Below are positions 2,020 to 45,351 of a stretch of DNA of 45,351 nucleotides, piece after piece. A program made the position numbers and the translations under genes. Every line of letters starts with the position of its first letter. Position 1 is the first letter of the stretch. The notes under the pieces are model-generated. The model made no database searches and was not told the DNA's origin. It saw only the letters and a program-made list of their open reading frames with translations. Where the stretch lies: contig JANXTL010000328.1 in the NCBI GenBank assembly GCA_025352375.1, positions 1 to 45,351 of the forward strand, read 5' to 3'. This DNA is from Acetobacteraceae bacterium. GTDB taxonomy: Bacteria; Pseudomonadota; Alphaproteobacteria; Acetobacterales; Acetobacteraceae.

Positions 2020-3084
2020 ATGACAACAATGACGGCCGCGGCGGTCCTGCGTCATCTGGCGTTGGCCACGCTGCTTGCGCTGTGCTCCGCCGGTATCGTG
2101 CGCGCAATGATCGCCGTGCGGATGATGGACACGCCCGAGGTTCGCAAGGCGCACGACCGCCCCACCCCAAAAGGCGGCGGCGTCGGAATTGTGCTGACGT
2201 TTCTGATCGGTATCGCGATCTTGTACGGTTTCGGCGAATTCGCGCGGCTCGCCGATCCGTATTTTCGGGGCGTGATCGGGGCTTCGGTCGCCATCGCGCT
2301 CGTGGCATTTCTGGACGACCTTTACGACTGGCCGTTCACGGTCAAGCTCGGCGCCCAGGTGCTGGCGGCATGCGTGGCGTTAGGGACGGGGCTCTATATT
2401 CAGGACTATCGGCTGCCCTATTTCGGTGCGGTTCCGATCGGCTGGTTCGGTGTGCCGGTCACCGCGGTTTGGTTGCTTTTTGCCACCAACGCGATGAATT
2501 TCATCGACGGGTTGAATGGTTTGGCCAGCGGCGTCACGTTGATCGCGGCCTTGTTTCTGGGCAGCATCGCGGCGATGCATCAGGCGTGGTTCGTCTATGC
2601 CGCCTGCGGATTGCTGGCGGCGGGCATCGCGGGGTTTCTGCCGTTCAATTTCCCCAAGGCCCGGATCTTCATGGGCGATGTGGGCAGCCAGTTCTGCGGT
2701 TTTATCCTCGCGGTGCTGGCGGTCGTGGCGGGCCGGATCGAGGGGGTGCCGGTGTCCTTCATGCTGGTGCCGGTTTTGCTGTCAGGGGTGCTTTACGACG
2801 TCGCGTTCACCTTGGTGCGGCGCTGGAAAGACGGGGAAAACGTGACGCAACCCCACCGCGGACATTTGTATCAGGTCGCCCACCGCTCCGGCGTTCCGGC
2901 GCCGGTCGTTACGTCGATCCACTGGGGATTCGCGGTGTTCGGCGGGCTGTGCTGCCTGCTGTTCATCGCCGCACCCTGGTCGGTGAAACCCTTCGTCCTG
3001 CTGCTGCCGCTGCTGCCGCAGCTGGTCTGGACCTGGTACGTGGTCCGCCGGGCTCGAGCCGCTGGGTTGGGGCGCTGGGGCTAG
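2020..3084 (+). CDS. WecA/MraY-type undecaprenyl-phosphate sugar-1-phosphate transferase
   Basis: This 354-residue polytopic inner-membrane protein has about ten hydrophobic segments. It carries the family's catalytic motifs: an early KAHDRPTPKGGG loop, DDLYDW near residue 96, NAMNFIDGLNGLA, RIFMGDVGSQFCGF and the cytoplasmic PHRGHLYQ loop. Family members move a HexNAc-1-phosphate from a UDP-sugar to undecaprenyl phosphate, the first step of O-antigen, capsule or other glycan synthesis. It is closer to WecA-like than to MraY proteins by length and by the DGLNGLA motif. No other glycan genes are nearby, so the pathway is unknown. Its stop codon TAG is the first three bases of a 117-bp repeat element, so the C-terminus may have been set by that insertion. 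Confidence 0.88.
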   Translation: MTTMTAAAVLRHLALATLLALCSAGIVRAMIAVRMMDTPEVRKAHDRPTPKGGGVGIVLTFLIGIAILYGFGEFARLADPYFRGVIGASVAIALVAFLDDLYDWPFTVKLGAQVLAACVALGTGLYIQDYRLPYFGAVPIGWFGVPVTAVWLLFATNAMNFIDGLNGLASGVTLIAALFLGSIAAMHQAWFVYAACGLLAAGIAGFLPFNFPKARIFMGDVGSQFCGFILAVLAVVAGRIEGVPVSFMLVPVLLSGVLYDVAFTLVRRWKDGENVTQPHRGHLYQVAHRSGVPAPVVTSIHWGFAVFGGLCCLLFIAAPWSVKPFVLLLPLLPQLVWTWYVVRRARAAGLGRWG

Positions 3085-3198
3085 ACCATGATCGTTTGAG
3101 GTTGCATGCGATCTCGGCGTTGGATCATGGTCTAAGCCTTTGTTTGAGAGGGTGATTCACGCCCGAGGTTGAAGTCAACCTCAGGCGATCACGCTCTA
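3082..3198. repeat. 117-bp MITE/BIME-like palindromic element, copy 1
   Basis: The element begins TAGACCATGATC and ends with the complement of TAGAGCGTGATC. The two ends match as inverted repeats over about 23 bp with four mismatches. Inside are a 12-bp perfect stem (3082-3093 with 3123-3134) and an 8-bp palindrome (GAGGTTGA/TCAACCTC at 3165-3182). It is identical over its whole length to the copy at 45215-45331. The left TAG is the stop of the plus-strand transferase gene and the right TAG is the stop of the minus-strand gene at 3196-3864, so it exactly fills the convergent gap. Confidence 0.9.
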
Positions 3199-3864
3199 AG
3201 GCGCGAAGCCGGTCTTGGTGCGGGTATATTCCAGCCGATAGAGGCCTCGTTCATACGGTGCCATCGCGCCAGCGCCGGTCATTGCGCGATCCTGCATGAT
3301 TTGAGTCAGGGCCTCGGCGTCGGTTGCTTCGATCATAATGAAGCAATCCGGCGTGGCCTGGATGTCGGTCCGCCCCTGATATTCGGTCGTACGCACGGAA
3401 GACGCCGCAGCATCCCCCTGGCAGAAATGTGCGCCGGTGACACGGGCCGCTTGCCCTGCCGCGCGGACCAAGGCCCGCAGGCCAGGAATGTGTTGTGCGT
3501 CGCACCCGAACCGAATGGTCAGCAAGACCCCGCCGCTTCCCGGTCCGTGGCTGACCAGCACCCGCGACAGGGCGCGGAACGTGTTCTGGAAGCGCGACGT
3601 GACGTGGGCGGTCGCCGGAGTCGGATCGTTCAGCCGGTTCGCGTAATCCACGCCCTGGGCGACCTGAATGGTGTCGAGCTCGTACAGCGTAAAGAACTCG
3701 GGCTTCGTCACCGGGTCGATGGCGATATACCGCCGGCCCCGCCGGAATCCGGGGATGCCAACCCGCTCGGGCATGTGTTCGACAATGTGCCAGTCGTAAA
3801 ACTGCTCCCGCGTGTCGGCGGGAATGTCGTTCCAGATCGCGACCACGGCTTCTCCGGCTAGCAT
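3196..3864 (-). CDS. Hypothetical protein with dimeric alpha-beta barrel (DUF4286-like) features
   Basis: This 222-residue protein is probably cytoplasmic. The ATG at 3864 is preceded by AAGGGA at a good spacing; an in-frame upstream extension has no such site and reads like non-coding sequence. The motif AIWNDIPADTREQFYDWHIVEHMPERVGIPGFRRGRRYIA and a second half with CFIMIEATDAEALTQIM suggest two ferredoxin-like Dabb/EthD-type halves. Enzymes of this fold include monooxygenases and dehalogenating enzymes, but no catalytic assignment is possible here. The TAG stop lies inside the 117-bp repeat. It sits 19 bases downstream of the antitoxin gene in the same direction. Confidence 0.7.
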   Translation of the reverse strand: MLAGEAVVAIWNDIPADTREQFYDWHIVEHMPERVGIPGFRRGRRYIAIDPVTKPEFFTLYELDTIQVAQGVDYANRLNDPTPATAHVTSRFQNTFRALSRVLVSHGPGSGGVLLTIRFGCDAQHIPGLRALVRAAGQAARVTGAHFCQGDAAASSVRTTEYQGRTDIQATPDCFIMIEATDAEALTQIMQDRAMTGAGAMAPYERGLYRLEYTRTKTGFAP

Positions 3865-3883
3865 GGCGGGTTCCCTTGGGGGA

Positions 3884-4300
3884 TTACGGTGAGGTCTGTT
3901 TGTCGGCCGACCGACCACGGGATGCAACCTGTTGGGCGGGCGGGTCTTGATATCCCTTGGGCGACATCGCATCTTGAGTTGCATCTGCCACCGCCCGCAG
4001 AAAAGTCGGAAAATCGGCGAATTTTATCACCAACGCAATATCCAGCTTTTCGGCGATATCCAGCAACGTTTGCAGCGTCAACTTCCCGTAATCTTCATTC
4101 TCCAGCCGTGACACTACGCTTTGCGGCTTGCCAATCAACCGCCCGAACTCCCGCTGCGAGCGGTTGCCACGCAGCGCCCGGATTTGGTCCGCCAGATAGG
4201 CCCGCAGCCCGTGCGCCATGTACGACGCGCGGAATTCGCGGTTGTCCAACGCGTTAGTGGACGGTGTACCCGCCCCAGAGATGGGTGCGTCGCTGGTCAT
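3884..4300 (-). CDS. HigA-type antitoxin, XRE helix-turn-helix protein
   Basis: This 138-residue protein has an XRE helix-turn-helix in the middle (QREFGRLIGKPQSVVSRLENEDYGKLTLQTLLDIAEKLDIAL) and a hydrophilic, proline-rich tail. As a HigA-like antitoxin it would bind and neutralise the toxin encoded just upstream and repress their shared promoter. The ATG at 4300 is chosen because GGAG sits about eight bases before it. The gene therefore overlaps the 3' end of the toxin gene by 47 bases in another frame, which fits coupled translation. An ATG further in, at MAHGLRAYL, would give a shorter protein and cannot be excluded. Confidence 0.82.
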   Translation of the reverse strand: MTSDAPISGAGTPSTNALDNREFRASYMAHGLRAYLADQIRALRGNRSQREFGRLIGKPQSVVSRLENEDYGKLTLQTLLDIAEKLDIALVIKFADFPTFLRAVADATQDAMSPKGYQDPPAQQVASRGRSADKQTSP

Positions 4301-12812: not shown

Positions 12813-14448
12813 ATGACCGGAAACCCCGCTTATCTGCATGGCCTCGACAAGAATCAGGCCAACTTCTCCCCATTGACCCCGCTGACCTTCATCGAACGGG
12901 CGGCGTATGTGTACCCCGACAAGCCGTCGGTCGTGCATGGCGCCGAGCGATATACGTGGTCGCAGACCTATGCACGATGCCGGCGGCTGGCATCCGCGCT
13001 GGCGCGGCGCGGTGTCGGCAAAAACGATACCGTCGCGGTCATGCTGCCCAATACGCCCCCAATGTATGAAGCGCATTTCGGCGTGCCGATGTGCGGCGCG
13101 GTACTGAATACGCTGAACACCCGCCTGGAGGCCGAGACCATCGCATTCATGTTGAAGCATGGTGGCGCCAGGGTGTTGATCACCGACCGGGAGTTCTCCG
13201 CGGTTGTCGGCCCGGCGTTGGCGATGTTGGACGAAAAGCCGCTGGTGATCGATGTTGACGACCCCTCGTGGCCGCACGGCGATCTGGTGGGTTCGGTGAC
13301 CTATGAAACCTTCCTGGCCGAGGGCGATCCCTCGTACGACTGGCAAAACCCCGCCGACGAGTGGGACGCCATTGCCCTGAACTACACCTCCGGCACTACC
13401 GGTGACCCCAAGGGCGTTGTTTACCACCACCGCGGTGCGCATCTGAACGCGGTTAGCAACATCCTGAACTGGGGAATGCCGCAGCACGCGATCTACCTCT
13501 GGACGCTGCCGATGTTCCATTGCAACGGCTGGACCTTCCCCTGGACGATCGCCGAACGCGCTGGGGTGAATGTATGCCTCCGGCGGGTGGAGGCGAAGGC
13601 CGCCTGGGATGCCATTCGCGATGAGGGCGTTACCCACATGTGCGGCGCGCCTATCGTCTACTCGCTGCTGTTCCACTGCGACCCGGCACTGCGCTCCGGT
13701 GTGAACCATCGCATCGCCGGTCAGGTCGCCGGCGCTGCTCCCCCCGCCGCGATCATCGAGGGCGCCGAGCTGGCCGGCATCGACCTAACCCATGTCTACG
13801 GGCTGACCGAGGTCTACGGCCCCGTCTCCGTCTGTGCCAAGCACGCGGCGTGGGAGGAACTTCCCATCGACCAACGCGCCGAGCGCAACGGCCGTCAGGG
13901 CGTGCGGACACCGTTGCAGGAGGCGATGACGGTGCTCGATCCAAAAACGATGCAGCCGGTGCCTTGGAATGGAGAAACCATGGGCGAGATCATGCTGCGC
14001 GGCAACATTACAATGAAAGGGTATTTGTCGAACCCACACACCACCGAGAAAGCCTTCGAAGGCGGCTGGTTCCACACCGGCGACCTCGCGGTGATGCAGC
14101 CCGATGGCTATGTAAAAATCCGTGACCGTTCCAAGGACATTATCATCAGCGGCGGCGAGAATATTTCGTCCATCGAAGTAGAGGAAGCGTTGTACCGCCA
14201 CCCTTCGGTCCTCAGTGCCGCAGTGGTCGCGCAGCCTGACGAAAAATGGGGGGAGACCCCTTGCGCGTTCGTCGAACTTAAACCGGGTTCGGCTGTGACG
14301 GCCGAGGAACTGCGCGCGTTCTGCCGCTTTAGCGGGGTTCAAAGTGCCTCGGGCCTACGTCTTCGGAGATTTGCCAAAGACCTCCACTGGTAAAATCCAG
14401 AAATTCGCCCTGCGCGAACGCGCGAAATCCGCCAGCGCGATTGGGTAA
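12813..14448 (+). pseudogene. Acyl-CoA synthetase (AMP-binding, DmdB-like), C-terminal frameshift
   Basis: The gene starts at an ATG behind GGAGGAAAC. It encodes the ANL adenylation core: YTSGTTGDPKGV near residue 190, the GLTEVYGP block, and HTGDLA and KDIIISGGENIS near 430-450. The frame breaks close to 14328. After LRAFCR the original frame reads into unrelated residues and stops at 14393, whereas the +1 frame gives the expected LAGFKVPR...PKTSTGKIQKFALRER and stops at 14448. The lost segment includes the A10 motif, whose lysine contacts the adenylate. Either a real mutation or a sequencing error could explain this. The neighbour is a DmdC-type dehydrogenase, so a thioether or short acyl substrate is possible. 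Confidence 0.88.
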
Positions 14449-14458
14449 GGACACAGCC

Positions 14459-16261
14459 ATGACCGAATACACTGCCCCCCTCCGCGATATGCGTTTCGTG
14501 TTGAACGACCTCGTCGGCATGGACGCCATCGCGGCTCTTCCGGGCTACGATCATGCTGAACCTGACCTGATCGATGCGATCCTGGAGGAAGCGGCCAAAT
14601 TCGCCGGCAACGTCCTGTCGCCGCTGAACCATTCCGGGGACAAGGAAGGCGCCCGCCTGGACTCGGACGGTGCCCACGTCGCGGCCGGATTCGCCGACGC
14701 CTACAGACAATTCGTCCATGGCGGCTGGAATGCGCTCGGTTGCGATCCCGAATATGGCGGGCAAGGCCTCCCGGCCGTGTTGGGTACCGCCGTCAAGGAA
14801 ATGTGGAACGCGTCCAACATGGCATTCTCTCTCTGTCCGCTGCTGACCACCGGCGCGATCGAGGCGCTGCATTTGGTTGGTTCCGACGCGCAAAAGAAAA
14901 TGTATCTGCCGAAAATGGTTGAGGGCAGCTGGACCGGAACGATGAACCTCACCGAATCGCAGGCCGGGTCCGACCTCGCCGCCGTGCGCAGCCGAGCGGT
15001 TCCGGAGGGCGATCGTTTCCGTATTTACGGCCAGAAGATATTCATCACCTATGGCGATCACGACATGACGGAGAACATTGTTCACCTCGTGCTCGCCCGC
15101 TTGCCTGACGCGCCGGAGGGGGTGCGCGGCATTTCCTTGTTCGTGGTGCCGAAATATCTCGTCAATCCCGACGGATCGCTGGGTGCCCGCAACGACGTGC
15201 ATTGTGTGTCGCTGGAACACAAGCTGGGTATTCACGCCAGCCCCACTGCCATCATGGCTTACGGCGACAAAGAAGGTGCGATCGGGACTTTGGTGGGTGA
15301 GCCCAACCGAGGCCTCGAATATATGTTCATCATGATGAACCGAGCACGTTTCGATGTGGGGTTGCAGGGTATAGCGATATCGGAACGAGCATTTCAGCAC
15401 GCGCTGGATTATGCGCGAAACCGCGTGCAGGGCACCGAAACCGGTGTGCGCGGGGGCGGGCGCGTTGCCATAATCAAGCATCCCGACGTGCGCCGGATGC
15501 TGATGTCGATGAAATCTCGTATCGAGGCAATGCGCGCTTTGGCCTATGTCGTCGCTGCCGCGATCGACAAAGCCCAACGCGACCCGGATGCAACCGAACG
15601 GGCCCGTCACCAGGCGATGGTGGATCTGCTGATCCCTGTCGTGAAGGGCTGGAGTACGGAATCGGCCATCGACATCGCCTCCACCGGCGTGCAAATCCAC
15701 GGCGGCATGGGCTTCATCGAGGAAACCGGGGCGGCACAATTCCTTCGCGACGCCCGCATTCTGGCGATTTATGAGGGCACGACCGGCATCCAGGCCAACG
15801 ACCTGGTCGGACGCAAAATCCTGCGCGACCAGGGGGCTGCCGCGCGCGCCGCGGTCGCTGAAATGTGCCAGGTGCTGGCATTGCTGGAAACGGCGGACGG
15901 AGACGATTTCATGGCGATCCGGAACGGCCTGCGCGACGCCATCACGCTGCTGGAACAGACCATCGCCTGGGTGCTTGCGACCTACCCGACCGACCCGCGC
16001 GCGGTGCTCGCTGGGGCGGTGCCCCTGCTGCATTTATTCGGCATTGTCGCGGGCGGTTGGCAGTCCGCGCGTGGGGCCTTGGCAGCGGCCAAGCACCTCG
16101 CCGCCGGGGATAATGAGGAACCTGGCTTCTATCGGGCGAAGATCGGAACCGTTCGCTTTTACGCGGATCACGTCTTGTCGCAGGCGGGTGGTTTGGCACA
16201 TGCCGTCATGCACGGTTCCGCCGGCGTGCTGGCGCTGGACGACGATTTGTTCGCTTCTTAG
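14459..16261 (+). CDS. Acyl-CoA dehydrogenase, DmdC-like long form
   Basis: This 600-residue flavoenzyme is longer than ordinary acyl-CoA dehydrogenases. It has the extra C-terminal domain seen in 3-methylmercaptopropionyl-CoA dehydrogenases and their relatives. Visible blocks are GNEYGGQGLP-like sequence at 95-105, NLTESQAGSDL near 160, the FMIMMNRARFDVGLQG stretch, and GGMGFIEETGAAQFLRDARILAIYEGTTGIQANDLVGRK near 415-450, where the catalytic Glu of YEGTTGIQ lies. AAGGA precedes the ATG at 14459. It follows the ligase by 10 bases, so the two form an operon. Its TAG stop is the first codon of repeat copy 2. Confidence 0.92.
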   Translation: MTEYTAPLRDMRFVLNDLVGMDAIAALPGYDHAEPDLIDAILEEAAKFAGNVLSPLNHSGDKEGARLDSDGAHVAAGFADAYRQFVHGGWNALGCDPEYGGQGLPAVLGTAVKEMWNASNMAFSLCPLLTTGAIEALHLVGSDAQKKMYLPKMVEGSWTGTMNLTESQAGSDLAAVRSRAVPEGDRFRIYGQKIFITYGDHDMTENIVHLVLARLPDAPEGVRGISLFVVPKYLVNPDGSLGARNDVHCVSLEHKLGIHASPTAIMAYGDKEGAIGTLVGEPNRGLEYMFIMMNRARFDVGLQGIAISERAFQHALDYARNRVQGTETGVRGGGRVAIIKHPDVRRMLMSMKSRIEAMRALAYVVAAAIDKAQRDPDATERARHQAMVDLLIPVVKGWSTESAIDIASTGVQIHGGMGFIEETGAAQFLRDARILAIYEGTTGIQANDLVGRKILRDQGAAARAAVAEMCQVLALLETADGDDFMAIRNGLRDAITLLEQTIAWVLATYPTDPRAVLAGAVPLLHLFGIVAGGWQSARGALAAAKHLAAGDNEEPGFYRAKIGTVRFYADHVLSQAGGLAHAVMHGSAGVLALDDDLFAS

Positions 16262-16375
16262 AGCGTGATCGCCTGAGGTTGACTTCAACCTCGGGCGTGA
16301 ATCACCCTCTTAAACAAAGGCTTAGACCATGATCGAACGCCGCGATCGCGTGCAACCTCAAACGATCATGGTATA
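16259..16375. repeat. 117-bp MITE/BIME-like palindromic element, copy 2 (inverted)
   Basis: This copy lies in the opposite orientation to copies 1 and 3 and has the same length. It starts TAGAGCGTGATC at the acyl-CoA dehydrogenase stop codon and ends ATCATGGTATA. It differs from the other copies at a small number of positions, mainly in the loop of the long stem and at the right terminus (TATA instead of TCTA), so it is an older or diverged copy. Confidence 0.88.
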
Positions 16376-36239: not shown

Positions 36240-37904
36240 TTATCGTACCTGGTTGGGTATGGCACCGATCTCCACTGTCCGGTCGGCCGATCCGGTGATG
36301 CTCTGGTTGTCGAGCCAAAGGTTTTTTCGGATCTCGCCGTCGGCGAACGTCACGCGGACATCGTAGTTGCCCGCGGGGATGCGGACGGTCCCGCCGGAGC
36401 GTGCCCATCCGACCGAACCGCCGGTGCGCTGACCGTGACGGTAGAAATGTGCTTCCCCCTTGGCGCCGGTGTCGGTGCCGCCAACGGTGACGACCATGCG
36501 GATTTCGGCGATCGGCAGGCCAACCTCCACCGTTTTTTTGACGGTCCCTACGAAGCGCTGGTTGTCGAGCCACATATCGCGCGTGTTCTCCCCGTCGGCG
36601 AAGACGATGCGCACGTCGTAGGCGCCTTCCGGCAACCATACGGTAACCCCCGAACGCGCGGAGTCGATGACCGGGCCTTCGTGGTGGCCGCCTGGGTAGA
36701 AACGGACCTCCCCTTTGTTGCCGGTATCGGTGCCGCCGTTGACGATCGCATATCGCACCTCGGCCACAGCGACGCCGACCTCGACCGTTTTCTCGACAGT
36801 TCCGGCCAGGGACTGGTTGGTCAGCCAGACGTCCTTATTGGCGGCGCCGTCGGCGAACCGTACCCGGATGTCGTAGGCGCCTGCCGGTATCCGAACCGTT
36901 TCCCCGGCGCTGCTCCAGGTGATGCCGTTGCCGTCGCGCTTCCCGGCGGGGTAGTAAACGACCTGCGCTTTGTCTTTGACTGCGGTGCCGCCATTGGTGA
37001 CCGTCGCGCGCACCTGGGCCAGTGCGATGCCAACCTCGATGGTTCGTTCCACCGACCCGGAGAAGGCCTGTTGGTCGAGCCAGATCACCTTCTTCGCGTC
37101 GCCGTCTTCGAACGTGATCCGCACATCGTAAGTGCCAGCCGGCAGGCGAAGGCTTTGCCCCGAGTTGGTCCAGCCGACATTGGGCGGGTTCGCGGTGGCG
37201 ATCGTCGCATGGGTACCGGCGGGATACACGTGGATGTCGCCCTTGTTGCCGGTATCGGCGCCGCCATTGGTAATGAGGTAGCGCACATCGGCCAGCGGCA
37301 AATCGACCTCGACCGTTTTTTCCACCGAACCGCCGAGCGTCTGGTTATCGAGCCAGATCGTTTTCTCGGCGCCGCTGTCCGAGAACGTCACCCGCACGTC
37401 GTAGGCGCCGGCTGCCAGCCGAATCGATTGCCCGGAATTGGCGAGGCCGACACTGGCGGTATTGCGTACCCCGTTCGCCGTATGGGTGCCGGTGGGATAG
37501 ACATGAACGCTGCCGCGGTTGCCGACATCGGCGCCGCCGTTGGTGACGGTGGTGCGGAGTTCGGCCATGGGCTGCGCCAGCTCGAAGGTTTTCGTGACCG
37601 ACCCGGCGAAATTTTGCTTGTCGAACCAGACGATTTTACGGGCATTGCCGTCTTCGAAGGTGATGCGGACATCGTATGCGCCCTCCGGCAGGCTGGTCTT
37701 CTGGCCCGACCCAGCCCACCCCTCACTCACATTGCTCAGCATCCCGCTCGGCGTATGAACGCCGGCCTTGTAGAAATGGATGGACGCCTTGTTGCCGACA
37801 TCGGTCCCGTTGTTGGTGACGACATACCGCACTTCGGCATCGGCCGCGCGGCCGGCGGTCGTGCCGCACAGCACCAGCAGCACGAGGCCTAGACCATGAT
37901 CCAT
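36240..37904 (-). CDS. Exported protein of six tandem beta-rich repeats, function unknown
   Basis: This 554-residue protein has a short signal peptide (MDHGLGLVLLVLCGTTAGRA) and is otherwise six repeats. Units 1-3 are 91 residues and units 4-6 are about 85-89, starting near residues 23, 114, 205, 296, 381 and 466. Each unit has the pattern VRY-V-NGGTDTGNKG, FYPAG, LPAGAYDVRITFEDG, W-DNQ and GSVEKTVEV, so it is probably a string of Ig- or PEGA-like beta domains outside the cytoplasm. No known family was recognised. The start is uncertain: residues 1-7 lie in sequence matching the 117-bp repeat, and the n-region lacks a basic residue. Confidence 0.78.
   Translation of the reverse strand: MDHGLGLVLLVLCGTTAGRAADAEVRYVVTNNGTDVGNKASIHFYKAGVHTPSGMLSNVSEGWAGSGQKTSLPEGAYDVRITFEDGNARKIVWFDKQNFAGSVTKTFELAQPMAELRTTVTNGGADVGNRGSVHVYPTGTHTANGVRNTASVGLANSGQSIRLAAGAYDVRVTFSDSGAEKTIWLDNQTLGGSVEKTVEVDLPLADVRYLITNGGADTGNKGDIHVYPAGTHATIATANPPNVGWTNSGQSLRLPAGTYDVRITFEDGDAKKVIWLDQQAFSGSVERTIEVGIALAQVRATVTNGGTAVKDKAQVVYYPAGKRDGNGITWSSAGETVRIPAGAYDIRVRFADGAANKDVWLTNQSLAGTVEKTVEVGVAVAEVRYAIVNGGTDTGNKGEVRFYPGGHHEGPVIDSARSGVTVWLPEGAYDVRIVFADGENTRDMWLDNQRFVGTVKKTVEVGLPIAEIRMVVTVGGTDTGAKGEAHFYRHGQRTGGSVGWARSGGTVRIPAGNYDVRVTFADGEIRKNLWLDNQSITGSADRTVEIGAIPNQVR
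36243..37838. repeat. Six in-frame tandem repeats inside a gene (about 255-273 bp each)
   Basis: Units run 37838-37566, 37565-37293, 37292-37020, 37019-36765, 36764-36510 and 36509-36243 on the minus strand. The first three are 273 bp and the next two 255 bp. The change in length falls in the variable loop between the FYPAG and GxTVRLPAG strands. The protein repeats are similar but not identical, which points to old duplication under selection, not recent slippage. Confidence 0.8.
37885..37903. repeat. 19-bp fragment matching the 117-bp element
   Basis: On the minus strand these bases read TGGATCATGGTCTA followed by GGCCT. They match the inner arm and following spacer of the 117-bp element at 18 of 19 positions. 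The stretch covers two bases of the start codon and the next five codons of the six-repeat gene. Confidence 0.6.
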
Positions 37905-38008
37905 GTCCGCATGAAGTTCCCTTTGCCGTTGCCGCCGGCGACGTAAATTAGGCGGGGGCTTCTTGTGGCACGATCGGCGGATCAGGGTGCGGCTGTCTTT
38001 TTGTCGCA

Positions 38009-38060
38009 CGAAAGGCTTTTTACGCAGATTTCAGGGGATGCACGCGAATGCACGCAGATG
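38009..38060. repeat. Left inverted repeat flanking the GxxExxY remnant
   Basis: This contains TTTTTACGCAGAT, then GGATGCACGCGAATGCACGCAGATG in pieces. It pairs as an imperfect inverted repeat with 38276-38328, including the outer AAAGG block. Such ACGCAGAT/ATGCACGC tracts commonly accompany GxxExxY genes. Confidence 0.75.
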
Positions 38061-38069
38061 GAGTCTGGA

Positions 38070-38288
38070 TTACAGCCTGTGCACCACGCGCTTAACCTCC
38101 AGGCGCGGATTGCCGAAGTTCAGGCCAAGCTGCTGCGCAGTCACCAGGCCCGCCTTGCGCAGTTCGTGTGCCAAAGCATTTTCATAAATTTTTTCGGGAA
38201 ACCCGGCACCGAGCGCATTCAGCACGGTAAACGAGCAACCGATGATTCGCCCGGACAGATCGTTCAGACTCGTTGCATCCGCGTGCAT
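38070..38288 (-). pseudogene. GxxExxY protein with internal in-frame deletion
   Basis: The 72-residue frame begins MHADATSLNDLSGRIIG and keeps the diagnostic G-F-x-E-K-x-Y block (GAGFPEKIYENALAHELRKAGL). After AVAQQ-like TAQQ it jumps directly to LNFGNPRLEVKRVVHRL, which is normally the extreme C-terminus. Roughly fifty residues are missing compared with the usual 120-130-residue family, including the core strands with the PD-(D/E)xK-type residues. It should be inactive as a nuclease-fold protein. The frame is still open, so the deletion was in frame. Confidence 0.78.
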
Positions 38289-38328
38289 TTGCGTGCATCC
38301 ACTTCCATCTGCGTAAAAAACCTTTGTC
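38276..38328. repeat. Right inverted repeat flanking the GxxExxY remnant
   Basis: This is the partner of 38009-38060 in the opposite orientation. Its inner part encodes the first residues (MHADAT) of the GxxExxY frame, so the repeat is partly coding. Confidence 0.75.
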
Positions 38329-43447: not shown

Positions 43448-43837
43448 TCACGCTCCCTTGCCCAGTGCCATTCCAAACAACCCCATGTATTTCTTGTAGA
43501 TCGTAGTCGTCAGGGACAGGATGGTTTCCGTATCCGCGACCTTCGTCAGTTGCTGATCCAGCGCTACCGCGTTGCCGTCGAGGTTGTGGGTGCGCGGGCG
43601 TGCTGGGGCGAGGCCGGCCGTGTTAGGAGCGGTCCCTGCAAGGTGCCCCGGCTGGGTTTGCGCCGGGGTCACCCCGGACGTGGCTGCCAGGGTGCGGCCG
43701 AAATCCTGCACATCGGCCGGCTGGAAGCGCGGCGTGTTGGCGTTGGCGATGTTGCGCGCCAGCACCGCCTGGCGCCTCGCGGCCCAGTCCATGCGCTTCT
43801 GCGCCAGGTCGAAAATGCCAATGCGTGTCGGGTCCAT
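43448..43837 (-). CDS. flgB: Flagellar proximal rod protein FlgB
   Basis: This 129-residue rod protein begins MDPTRIGIFDLAQKRMDWAARRQ and carries VLARNIANANTPRF, the FlgB signature, and a C-terminal ETILSLTTTIYKKYMGLFGMALG. It is the first gene of the minus-strand flagellar operon. A perfect CtrA-type box ends 24 bases before its ATG, unusually close for an activator site. Confidence 0.95.
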   Translation of the reverse strand: MDPTRIGIFDLAQKRMDWAARRQAVLARNIANANTPRFQPADVQDFGRTLAATSGVTPAQTQPGHLAGTAPNTAGLAPARPRTHNLDGNAVALDQQLTKVADTETILSLTTTIYKKYMGLFGMALGKGA

Positions 43838-43858
43838 ACGGGGAGCATGACGCGGATT

Positions 43859-43880
43859 GGTTAAAAAAAGGTTAACGGCG
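43859..43880. promoter_or_regulatory. CtrA-type box beside flgB (left arm of 22-bp inverted repeat)
   Basis: TTAA at 43861-43864 and TTAAC at 43872-43876 are separated by seven bases (AAAAAGG), an exact CtrA consensus. The surrounding 22 bases are repeated perfectly in inverted orientation at 44127-44148. Confidence 0.75.
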
Positions 43881-43922
43881 GGGAAAAAAATTCAGGCGCG
43901 TGCGGGTTCTAATAGAAATTGT

Positions 43923-43959
43923 CCCGTGCGGGTGGTTCGTCGCGAACCATCCGCACGGG
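43923..43959. promoter_or_regulatory. Strong hairpin, 17-bp stem, in the flagellar control region
   Basis: CCCGTGCGGGTGGTTCG at 43923-43939 pairs with 43943-43959 with one G-T wobble and a TCG loop. No T-run follows on either strand, so it does not look like a simple terminator. It may be an operator, an insulator or an RNA structure. Confidence 0.65.
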
Positions 43960-44126
43960 CGAAAAACCGAACAGCGCATACAGACGTCTGCCTGGACGTG
44001 AAGCCTGCTTCCTGTGAAGGGCGCTATTGAGGCCGCGCCCTGTTATTACCGATGGCCTTTGGCTCACCTGGGAAAACGCATATCAGCCATGCAATTTAAA
44101 GTCCAGGGCATTTTTTCATAATTGGG

Positions 44127-44148
44127 CGCCGTTAACCTTTTTTTAACC
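44127..44148. promoter_or_regulatory. CtrA-type box beside fliO (right arm of 22-bp inverted repeat)
   Basis: GTTAA at 44131-44135 and TTAA at 44143-44146 form the exact reverse of the flgB-side box. The centre is about 57 bases before the fliO ATG, a fitting place for a CtrA site near the -35 region. Confidence 0.75.
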
Positions 44149-44194
44149 CTTTTGCTGTCTCCTGCCCGCATACCAACGTAACGGCGGTCCAGCG

Positions 44195-45214: not shown

Positions 45215-45331
45215 TAGACCATGATCGTTTGAGGTTGCATGCGATCTCGGCGTTGGATCATGGTCTAAGCCTTTGTTTGAGAGGGTGATTCACGCCCGAG
45301 GTTGAAGTCAACCTCAGGCGATCACGCTCTA
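45215..45331. repeat. 117-bp MITE/BIME-like palindromic element, copy 3
   Basis: This copy is identical at all 117 positions to copy 1, about 42 kb away, which indicates recent spread or conversion. It lies 37 bases after the fliP stop, so here it does not provide a stop codon. Confidence 0.92.
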
Positions 45332-45351
45332 AGCCTTTGTTTGAGAGGGTG
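45332..45351. repeat. Start of a further tandem unit of the 117-bp element
   Basis: Directly after copy 3 the 20 bases AGCCTTTGTTTGAGAGGGTG repeat the internal spacer of the element exactly. This suggests a tandem array that continues beyond the window. Confidence 0.75.

Follow-up and report, generated by a model that had tools for sequence, protein, structure and literature searches.

The 117-bp element at 3082-3198 of the window, which is the whole analysed stretch of 45,351 nt from an Acetobacteraceae bacterium, was best explained as a non-autonomous IS630-family MITE that would insert at YTAR, rebuild stop codons as TAG and be moved in trans, its distribution being shaped mainly by selection. 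The probability of this reading was put at about 0.88. An IS630-family (Tc1/mariner-like) transposase would act on the element in trans. Insertion would occur at the TA of YTAR and double the TA alone, which would give YTA-G...C-TAR. A TAR lying in frame is by itself a stop codon, either TAA or TAG. Because the element starts with G on both strands, either stop would be rebuilt as TAG and the protein would be unchanged. Where two convergent genes share a four-base overlap, a single YTAR would serve as both stops, and the insertion would part the two genes, each with its own TAG. Insertions within genes would be rare, presumably being removed by selection, for which reason the survivors would gather at stops and in noncoding DNA.

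Three copies of the element were located in the window. The features concerned are given below.

2020..3084, plus strand: glycosyl transferase family 4 gene; stop (3082-3084) from element copy 1
3082..3198, plus strand: element copy 1, made up of a linker between two palindromes, with an outer TA on either side
3082..3083: left TA of copy 1, one copy of the doubled target; with G3084 it makes up the TAG that ends the plus-strand gene
3082..3134: palindrome A, 53 nt; outer end agrees with the host IS630 end at 21 of 24 bases
3147..3197: palindrome B, about 51 nt; outer end agrees with the 11 compared IS630 ends at 17-21 of 24 bases
3197..3198: right TA of copy 1, second TA copy; with C3196 it forms, on the minus strand, the TAG stop of the minus-strand gene
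3196..3984, minus strand: convergent gene without Pfam or NCBIfam match; stop (3196-3198) from the element; C-terminus RTKTGFAP, then the stop, as in the relative G009
14441..16261, plus strand: acyl-CoA dehydrogenase; stop from element copy 2
16259..16375, minus strand: element copy 2, inverted; right end (16353-16375) mutated from TAGACC to TATACC
45215..45331, plus strand: element copy 3, about 40 bp downstream of the FliP stop; touches no stop
45320..45351, plus strand: onset only of a further tandem unit at a 64-bp step, interrupted by the contig end

Copy 1 is non-coding, and TAG starts both of its ends when read inward (TAGACCATGATC and TAGAGCGTGATC). The end motif had six matches in the window and none in 100 shuffles. 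An earlier note had described these TAG ends and had assigned them as the stops of both convergent genes, with copy 2 providing the stop of the acyl-CoA dehydrogenase; all of this was confirmed by the open reading frames (plus strand 2020-3084, minus strand 3196-3984, and a plus-strand frame ending at 16261). The change of TAGACC to TATACC at the right end of copy 2 means that no TAG is given there any more, and the amidase stop past this copy was about 83 bp from the element. The note's count of three of three gene ends holds for those that touch an element; of all five genes whose 3' end points toward one of the three copies, three take the element TAG as stop; the amidase and FliP stops lie apart. 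The window gave no Rfam match at the gathering score.

Other repeats were also observed in the window. A protein of degenerate repeats, with periods of 255 and 273 bp, is encoded on the minus strand at 36240-38009, where Pfam scores were scattered and no stretch passed. Inverted arms of 50 bp with a spacing of 215 bp were found at 38011-38325, and similar stretches occurred on four other contigs (C17, C139, C229 and C58); these arms are perhaps another repeat family. Inverted arms of 45 bp containing A and T runs, with a spacing of 246 bp, were present at 43836-44171 and had one weak relative (C73).

The site of copy 1 was compared with relatives that lack the element there. The empty site read TTAG in G009 and TTAA in G016, and in both it was a four-base overlap of the two convergent stops. 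The plus-strand protein ended in WG before its stop in 30 of 30 loci compared, the window's own included, and the minus-strand protein ended in RTKTGFA followed by P or S in the window, G009 and G016. Hence, neither gene at copy 1 was truncated: both proteins end at the same residue as in the element-free relatives, contrary to the truncation that the earlier note had considered, and the comparison of C-termini that it had proposed found both ends preserved without shortening. When the flanks of copy 1 were joined, the host site before insertion would have been CTAA. The acyl-CoA dehydrogenase of the nearest relative had equal length and a TGA stop. For a wider comparison, 33 stop-associated arrays of the first sample were considered, of which 30 had flanks long enough, and these were looked for in 5 of 32 relatives. 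In the loci fetched, at least 14 of the 30 stop sites could be aligned over the junction, and the remaining 16 could not. A stop in the same column was present in at least one relative at 12 of the 14 alignable sites, which makes truncation unlikely at most of them, and YTAR stood at the column in relatives for 8 and was absent for 6.

The insertion target was evaluated in three samples that together comprised 1.36 Mb of the host. The first sample (40 stretches and the window, 738,639 bp) was picked mainly for holding elements, whereas two unselected sets were picked irrespective of elements, one from 40 contigs (444,151 bp) and the other from 20 (181,984 bp), each contig contributing no more than its first 20 kb. 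Genes were called with a custom codon-model script, and arrays with both ends and sufficient flank were taken as usable (89 of 103). The target was YTAR in 85 of the 89 usable arrays, the reconstructed targets being CTAG in 27, TTAG in 26, CTAA in 20, TTAA in 12 and others in 4. As background, YTAR made up 1,182 of 13,513 TA sites in the first sample outside elements. Only the TA was doubled on insertion, and the empty sites in G009 and G016 held a single TA. Since the G that follows the left TA belongs to the element, the duplication is TA alone; an IS5-type MITE with a four-base YTAR duplication was ruled out on this ground. At 117 bp and without a transposase gene of its own, the element is short and non-autonomous, as expected of an IS630-family MITE.

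In the 5.12-Mb host genome, the end motif with up to two mismatches gave 312 + 320 = 632 matches, whereas the backwards pattern gave none; these end motifs correspond to roughly 300 elements. The motif was present in 17 of 59 genomes searched, host included, all 17 from one Acetobacteraceae genus (33 genomes), and several of them had few matches only. Among the matches listed, at least 15 stretches with the exact motif were named, every one an Acetobacteraceae MAG, and a search of viral contigs with one exact pattern gave no match. In the fetched 1.36 Mb, both outer ends were present in 94 arrays, of which 80 were exactly 117 bp; the other lengths were 50 bp (3), 114 bp (1), 180 bp (1), 181 bp (7) and 232 bp (2), and the tandem forms lengthened in 64-bp steps. 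Among the 80 copies of 117 bp, 68 had one to three differences from the consensus and 2 were identical to it. Several host contigs start or finish in element copies, indicating that the assembly was broken by these repeats. One copy was inserted at CTAG within an apparent IS3-family element (L104 1407-1523, on G003:C1), and an element-free version of this site, sought in seven genomes, was not found.

The reading frames that enter the element gave the clearest test of stop rebuilding and were consistent with it. The TAG frame was used by 49 of 53 coding frames running into an element, against 46 of 211 at element-free YTAR sites, a one-in-five sample (Fisher p 5e-22). By sample, the proportions were 39/42 in the first and 10/11 in the unselected sets. 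A further 18 arrays on contigs outside the sampled stretches (from loci L001-L060, repeats dropped) gave six strong coding entries, all six in the TAG frame. The four exceptions among the 53 entered in frame 2 (three) or frame 1 (one). At L068 2384, L069 11513 and L098 2639, the genes enter the element off-frame and stop at a TGA eight bases in, and their C-termini were therefore probably changed by the insertion, as judged from the predicted frames; L084 2234 was a weaker case of off-frame entry. A direct zero count of insertions in coding sequence carries little weight because an inserted element breaks the frame and hides the gene, and a joined-flank test was used instead. After the element was excised in script and the flanks were rejoined, 1 of 73 arrays lay within a coding frame (L062 11876-11992), compared with 687 of 2,042 element-free YTAR sites (p 1e-11). 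The off-frame entries and this one array indicate that insertion sometimes alters or breaks a gene, and the depletion would mainly reflect selection.

A transposase partner was sought among the IS630 elements of the genus, in which DDE_3 transposases occurred in 30 of 33 genomes. An IS630 element of 1,060 bp in G027 (L193:1396-2455, on G027:C115) had flanks TTA...TAA and ends TAGAGCGTGATCGTTTTAAGTTGAC and TAGAGCGTGATTGTCTGAAGTTGAC, which agreed with the MITE ends at 20 and 21 of 24 bases. Its transposase frame was split over two frames near an A run, a layout shared with elements for which programmed frameshifting has been proposed. A search with this transposase returned 30 loci, of which 10 had a MITE-like end; one motif match further off (L258) was left out of the count, and the rest, many of them more distant or cut by a contig end, gave none. 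The MITE-like ends were distributed over G003, G007, G010, G012, G015, G027 and the host itself (G000:C239), and in 9 of the 10 loci the end was located about 17-21 bp beyond the transposase match. The 11 IS ends from these 10 loci, host fragment included, matched the better of ends A and B at 18-21 of 24 bases, being similar but not identical. The host fragment matched at 21 of 24, and a search of the host for a complete transposase with these ends gave only this C-terminal piece at a contig edge. None of 1,730 TAGA 24-mers away from arrays reached 18 (best 16), a control that is partly circular because the regions it excluded had been located with the same motif; in the non-circular control with shuffled ends, 18 was reached in 21 of 371,400 comparisons. 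The scores of the IS ends are themselves partly selected because the ends were picked with a loose motif, but their distance beyond the gene is unaffected by this choice. The similarity of the ends suggests that an IS630 transposase of this kind may mobilise the element in trans.

The question of whether stops are favoured beyond YTAR was explored with the same samples. The earlier note had proposed targeting to gene ends and a tabulation of copies against stop codons. In the 1.36 Mb of host, 40 of the 89 usable arrays were on the stop of a called gene, so the association with stops is general; the target itself is YTAR, however, and the targeting pattern is largely a consequence of this rule. 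The pooled numbers of YTAR sites were as follows.

Both stops: 8 inserted, 10 empty
One stop: 32 inserted, 160 empty
Noncoding, up to 100 bp from a stop: 16 inserted, 176 empty
Further noncoding on the 3' side: 9 inserted, 304 empty
Between divergent genes: 10 inserted, 241 empty
Edge: 14 inserted, 146 empty

An active preference of the element for stops or gene ends, for example where transcripts end or collide, would explain the pooled comparison, in which 40 insertions at stops and 35 in noncoding DNA stood against 170 and 721 empty YTAR sites (odds ratio 4.8, p 3e-10), as well as the filling of 8 of the 18 YTAR sites common to two convergent stops. The odds ratio was 6.5 in the first sample alone, where absolute occupancy is inflated because the stretches were chosen for elements; stop-associated arrays were 33 of 62 in this element-centred sample and 4 of 20 in the first unselected set. 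On the unselected contigs together, 7 insertions were at stops and 12 in noncoding DNA, the empty sites numbering 79 and 307, respectively, and the extra preference was not significant (odds ratio 2.3, p 0.14). Taken by itself, the first of these sets gave an odds ratio of 1.6 (p 0.50), whereas the second had three stop and no noncoding insertions (p 0.04). A stricter gene threshold made little difference, the odds ratio being 5.1 in the pooled samples and 2.2 in the unselected ones (p 0.17). A stop excess over other noncoding YTAR is likely, although not established. Moreover, selection against harm in regulatory DNA yields a gradient toward stops of the same kind and predicts the same picture. 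An active preference was therefore considered unlikely. It was judged distinctly unlikely that the IS630 machinery of the genus finds stops, above all convergent four-base overlaps, beyond YTAR and selection, and so separates overlapping genes with their proteins unchanged.

A role at gene ends, in terminating transcription or in stabilising RNA as a hairpin, could also account for the maintenance of the element. On each strand, the predicted fold was more stable than 200 of 200 shuffles (z -7.1 and -6.1), and many copies sit between convergent genes. The bidirectional hairpin suggested in the earlier note was thus borne out by the fold prediction for either strand, but a search for terminator-like sites around copy 1 (2900-3400) found none. 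Furthermore, ten copies lay between divergent genes, and the stop was supplied by end B in 26 cases and by end A in 14, which was no significant bias (p 0.08); retention for such a function was accordingly rated improbable. Far less probable was an origin of the stop pattern in truncations tolerated thereafter. The off-frame coding entries and the single array within a coding frame would fit such truncations, but the 49 entries in the TAG frame, the C-termini at copy 1 and the 12 alignable sites with a stop in a relative argue against them. Equally hard to credit was a REP/BIME whose mobility would depend on a RAYT (Y1) transposase. In its paired palindromes, its high copy number and its tandem growth by 64 bp, the element resembles BIMEs, whose features are described in PMC2817692. 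Nevertheless, TA is doubled at insertion and the ends resemble IS630, and Y1_Tnp (PF01797) was detected in 0 of 4 genomes searched (of 33 in the genus), the host among them, against 5 of 14 in the control, by which a REP/RAYT origin was rejected. The IS630-family MITE inserting at YTAR was retained as the explanation.

Each part of this explanation has a precedent. The rhizobial RIME, compared by description only, resembles the element in its length of about 110 bp and its two palindromes. According to the sections of PMC3049150 on Streptococcus pneumoniae repeats, RUP is a 107-bp element related to IS630-Spn1, with IS630-like ends and over-representation between convergent genes. The two are alike in short length, ends and convergent-gene placement, whereas the host of RUP is unrelated, and the present element has tandem palindromes and a stop-coinciding YTAR target, as far as these descriptions allow comparison. 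The BOX repeat of S. pneumoniae, in the same account, encodes the stop in 36 genes, with truncation lacking strong evidence, and its ends were proposed to resemble ISSpn2. BOX thus provides gene stop codons as the present element does, but the TA/YTAR rule and paired stop regeneration belong to the latter, and the passages on BOX in PMC3049150 describe neither. IS630 of Shigella sonnei transposes preferentially to the TA in 5'-CTAG-3' (Tenzen and Ohtsubo 1991, as cited in PMC2170065); it is autonomous, and the present element uses all four YTAR forms. ISY100 of the Tc1/mariner/IS630 family, a cyanobacterial and autonomous element, inserts almost only at TA, as summarised in PMC2170065, and shares TA doubling with the present element. 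MITEPsy1 of Pseudomonas syringae, a 100-nt MITE with CTAG or YTAA as target, might derive from ISPsy2, which is listed as IS5 family, and doubles four bases in the description given in PMC3189936, whereas the present element doubles TA alone. Hence, TA doubling is found in the IS630 family, a preference for CTAG in IS630 itself, placement at convergent genes in RUP and encoded stops in BOX. Neither the YTAR-stop rule nor the parting of overlapping convergent stops was described in the literature searched, which covered few subscription papers.

By this simple rule, a mobile element would multiply into the hundreds with little harm to a genome that is GC-rich and densely packed with genes, given that the target holds the stop codon and the first base of the element restores it. 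Overlapping convergent genes can become separated in this way with neither protein changed. For annotation, the element serves as a warning that stop codons can sit inside repeats.
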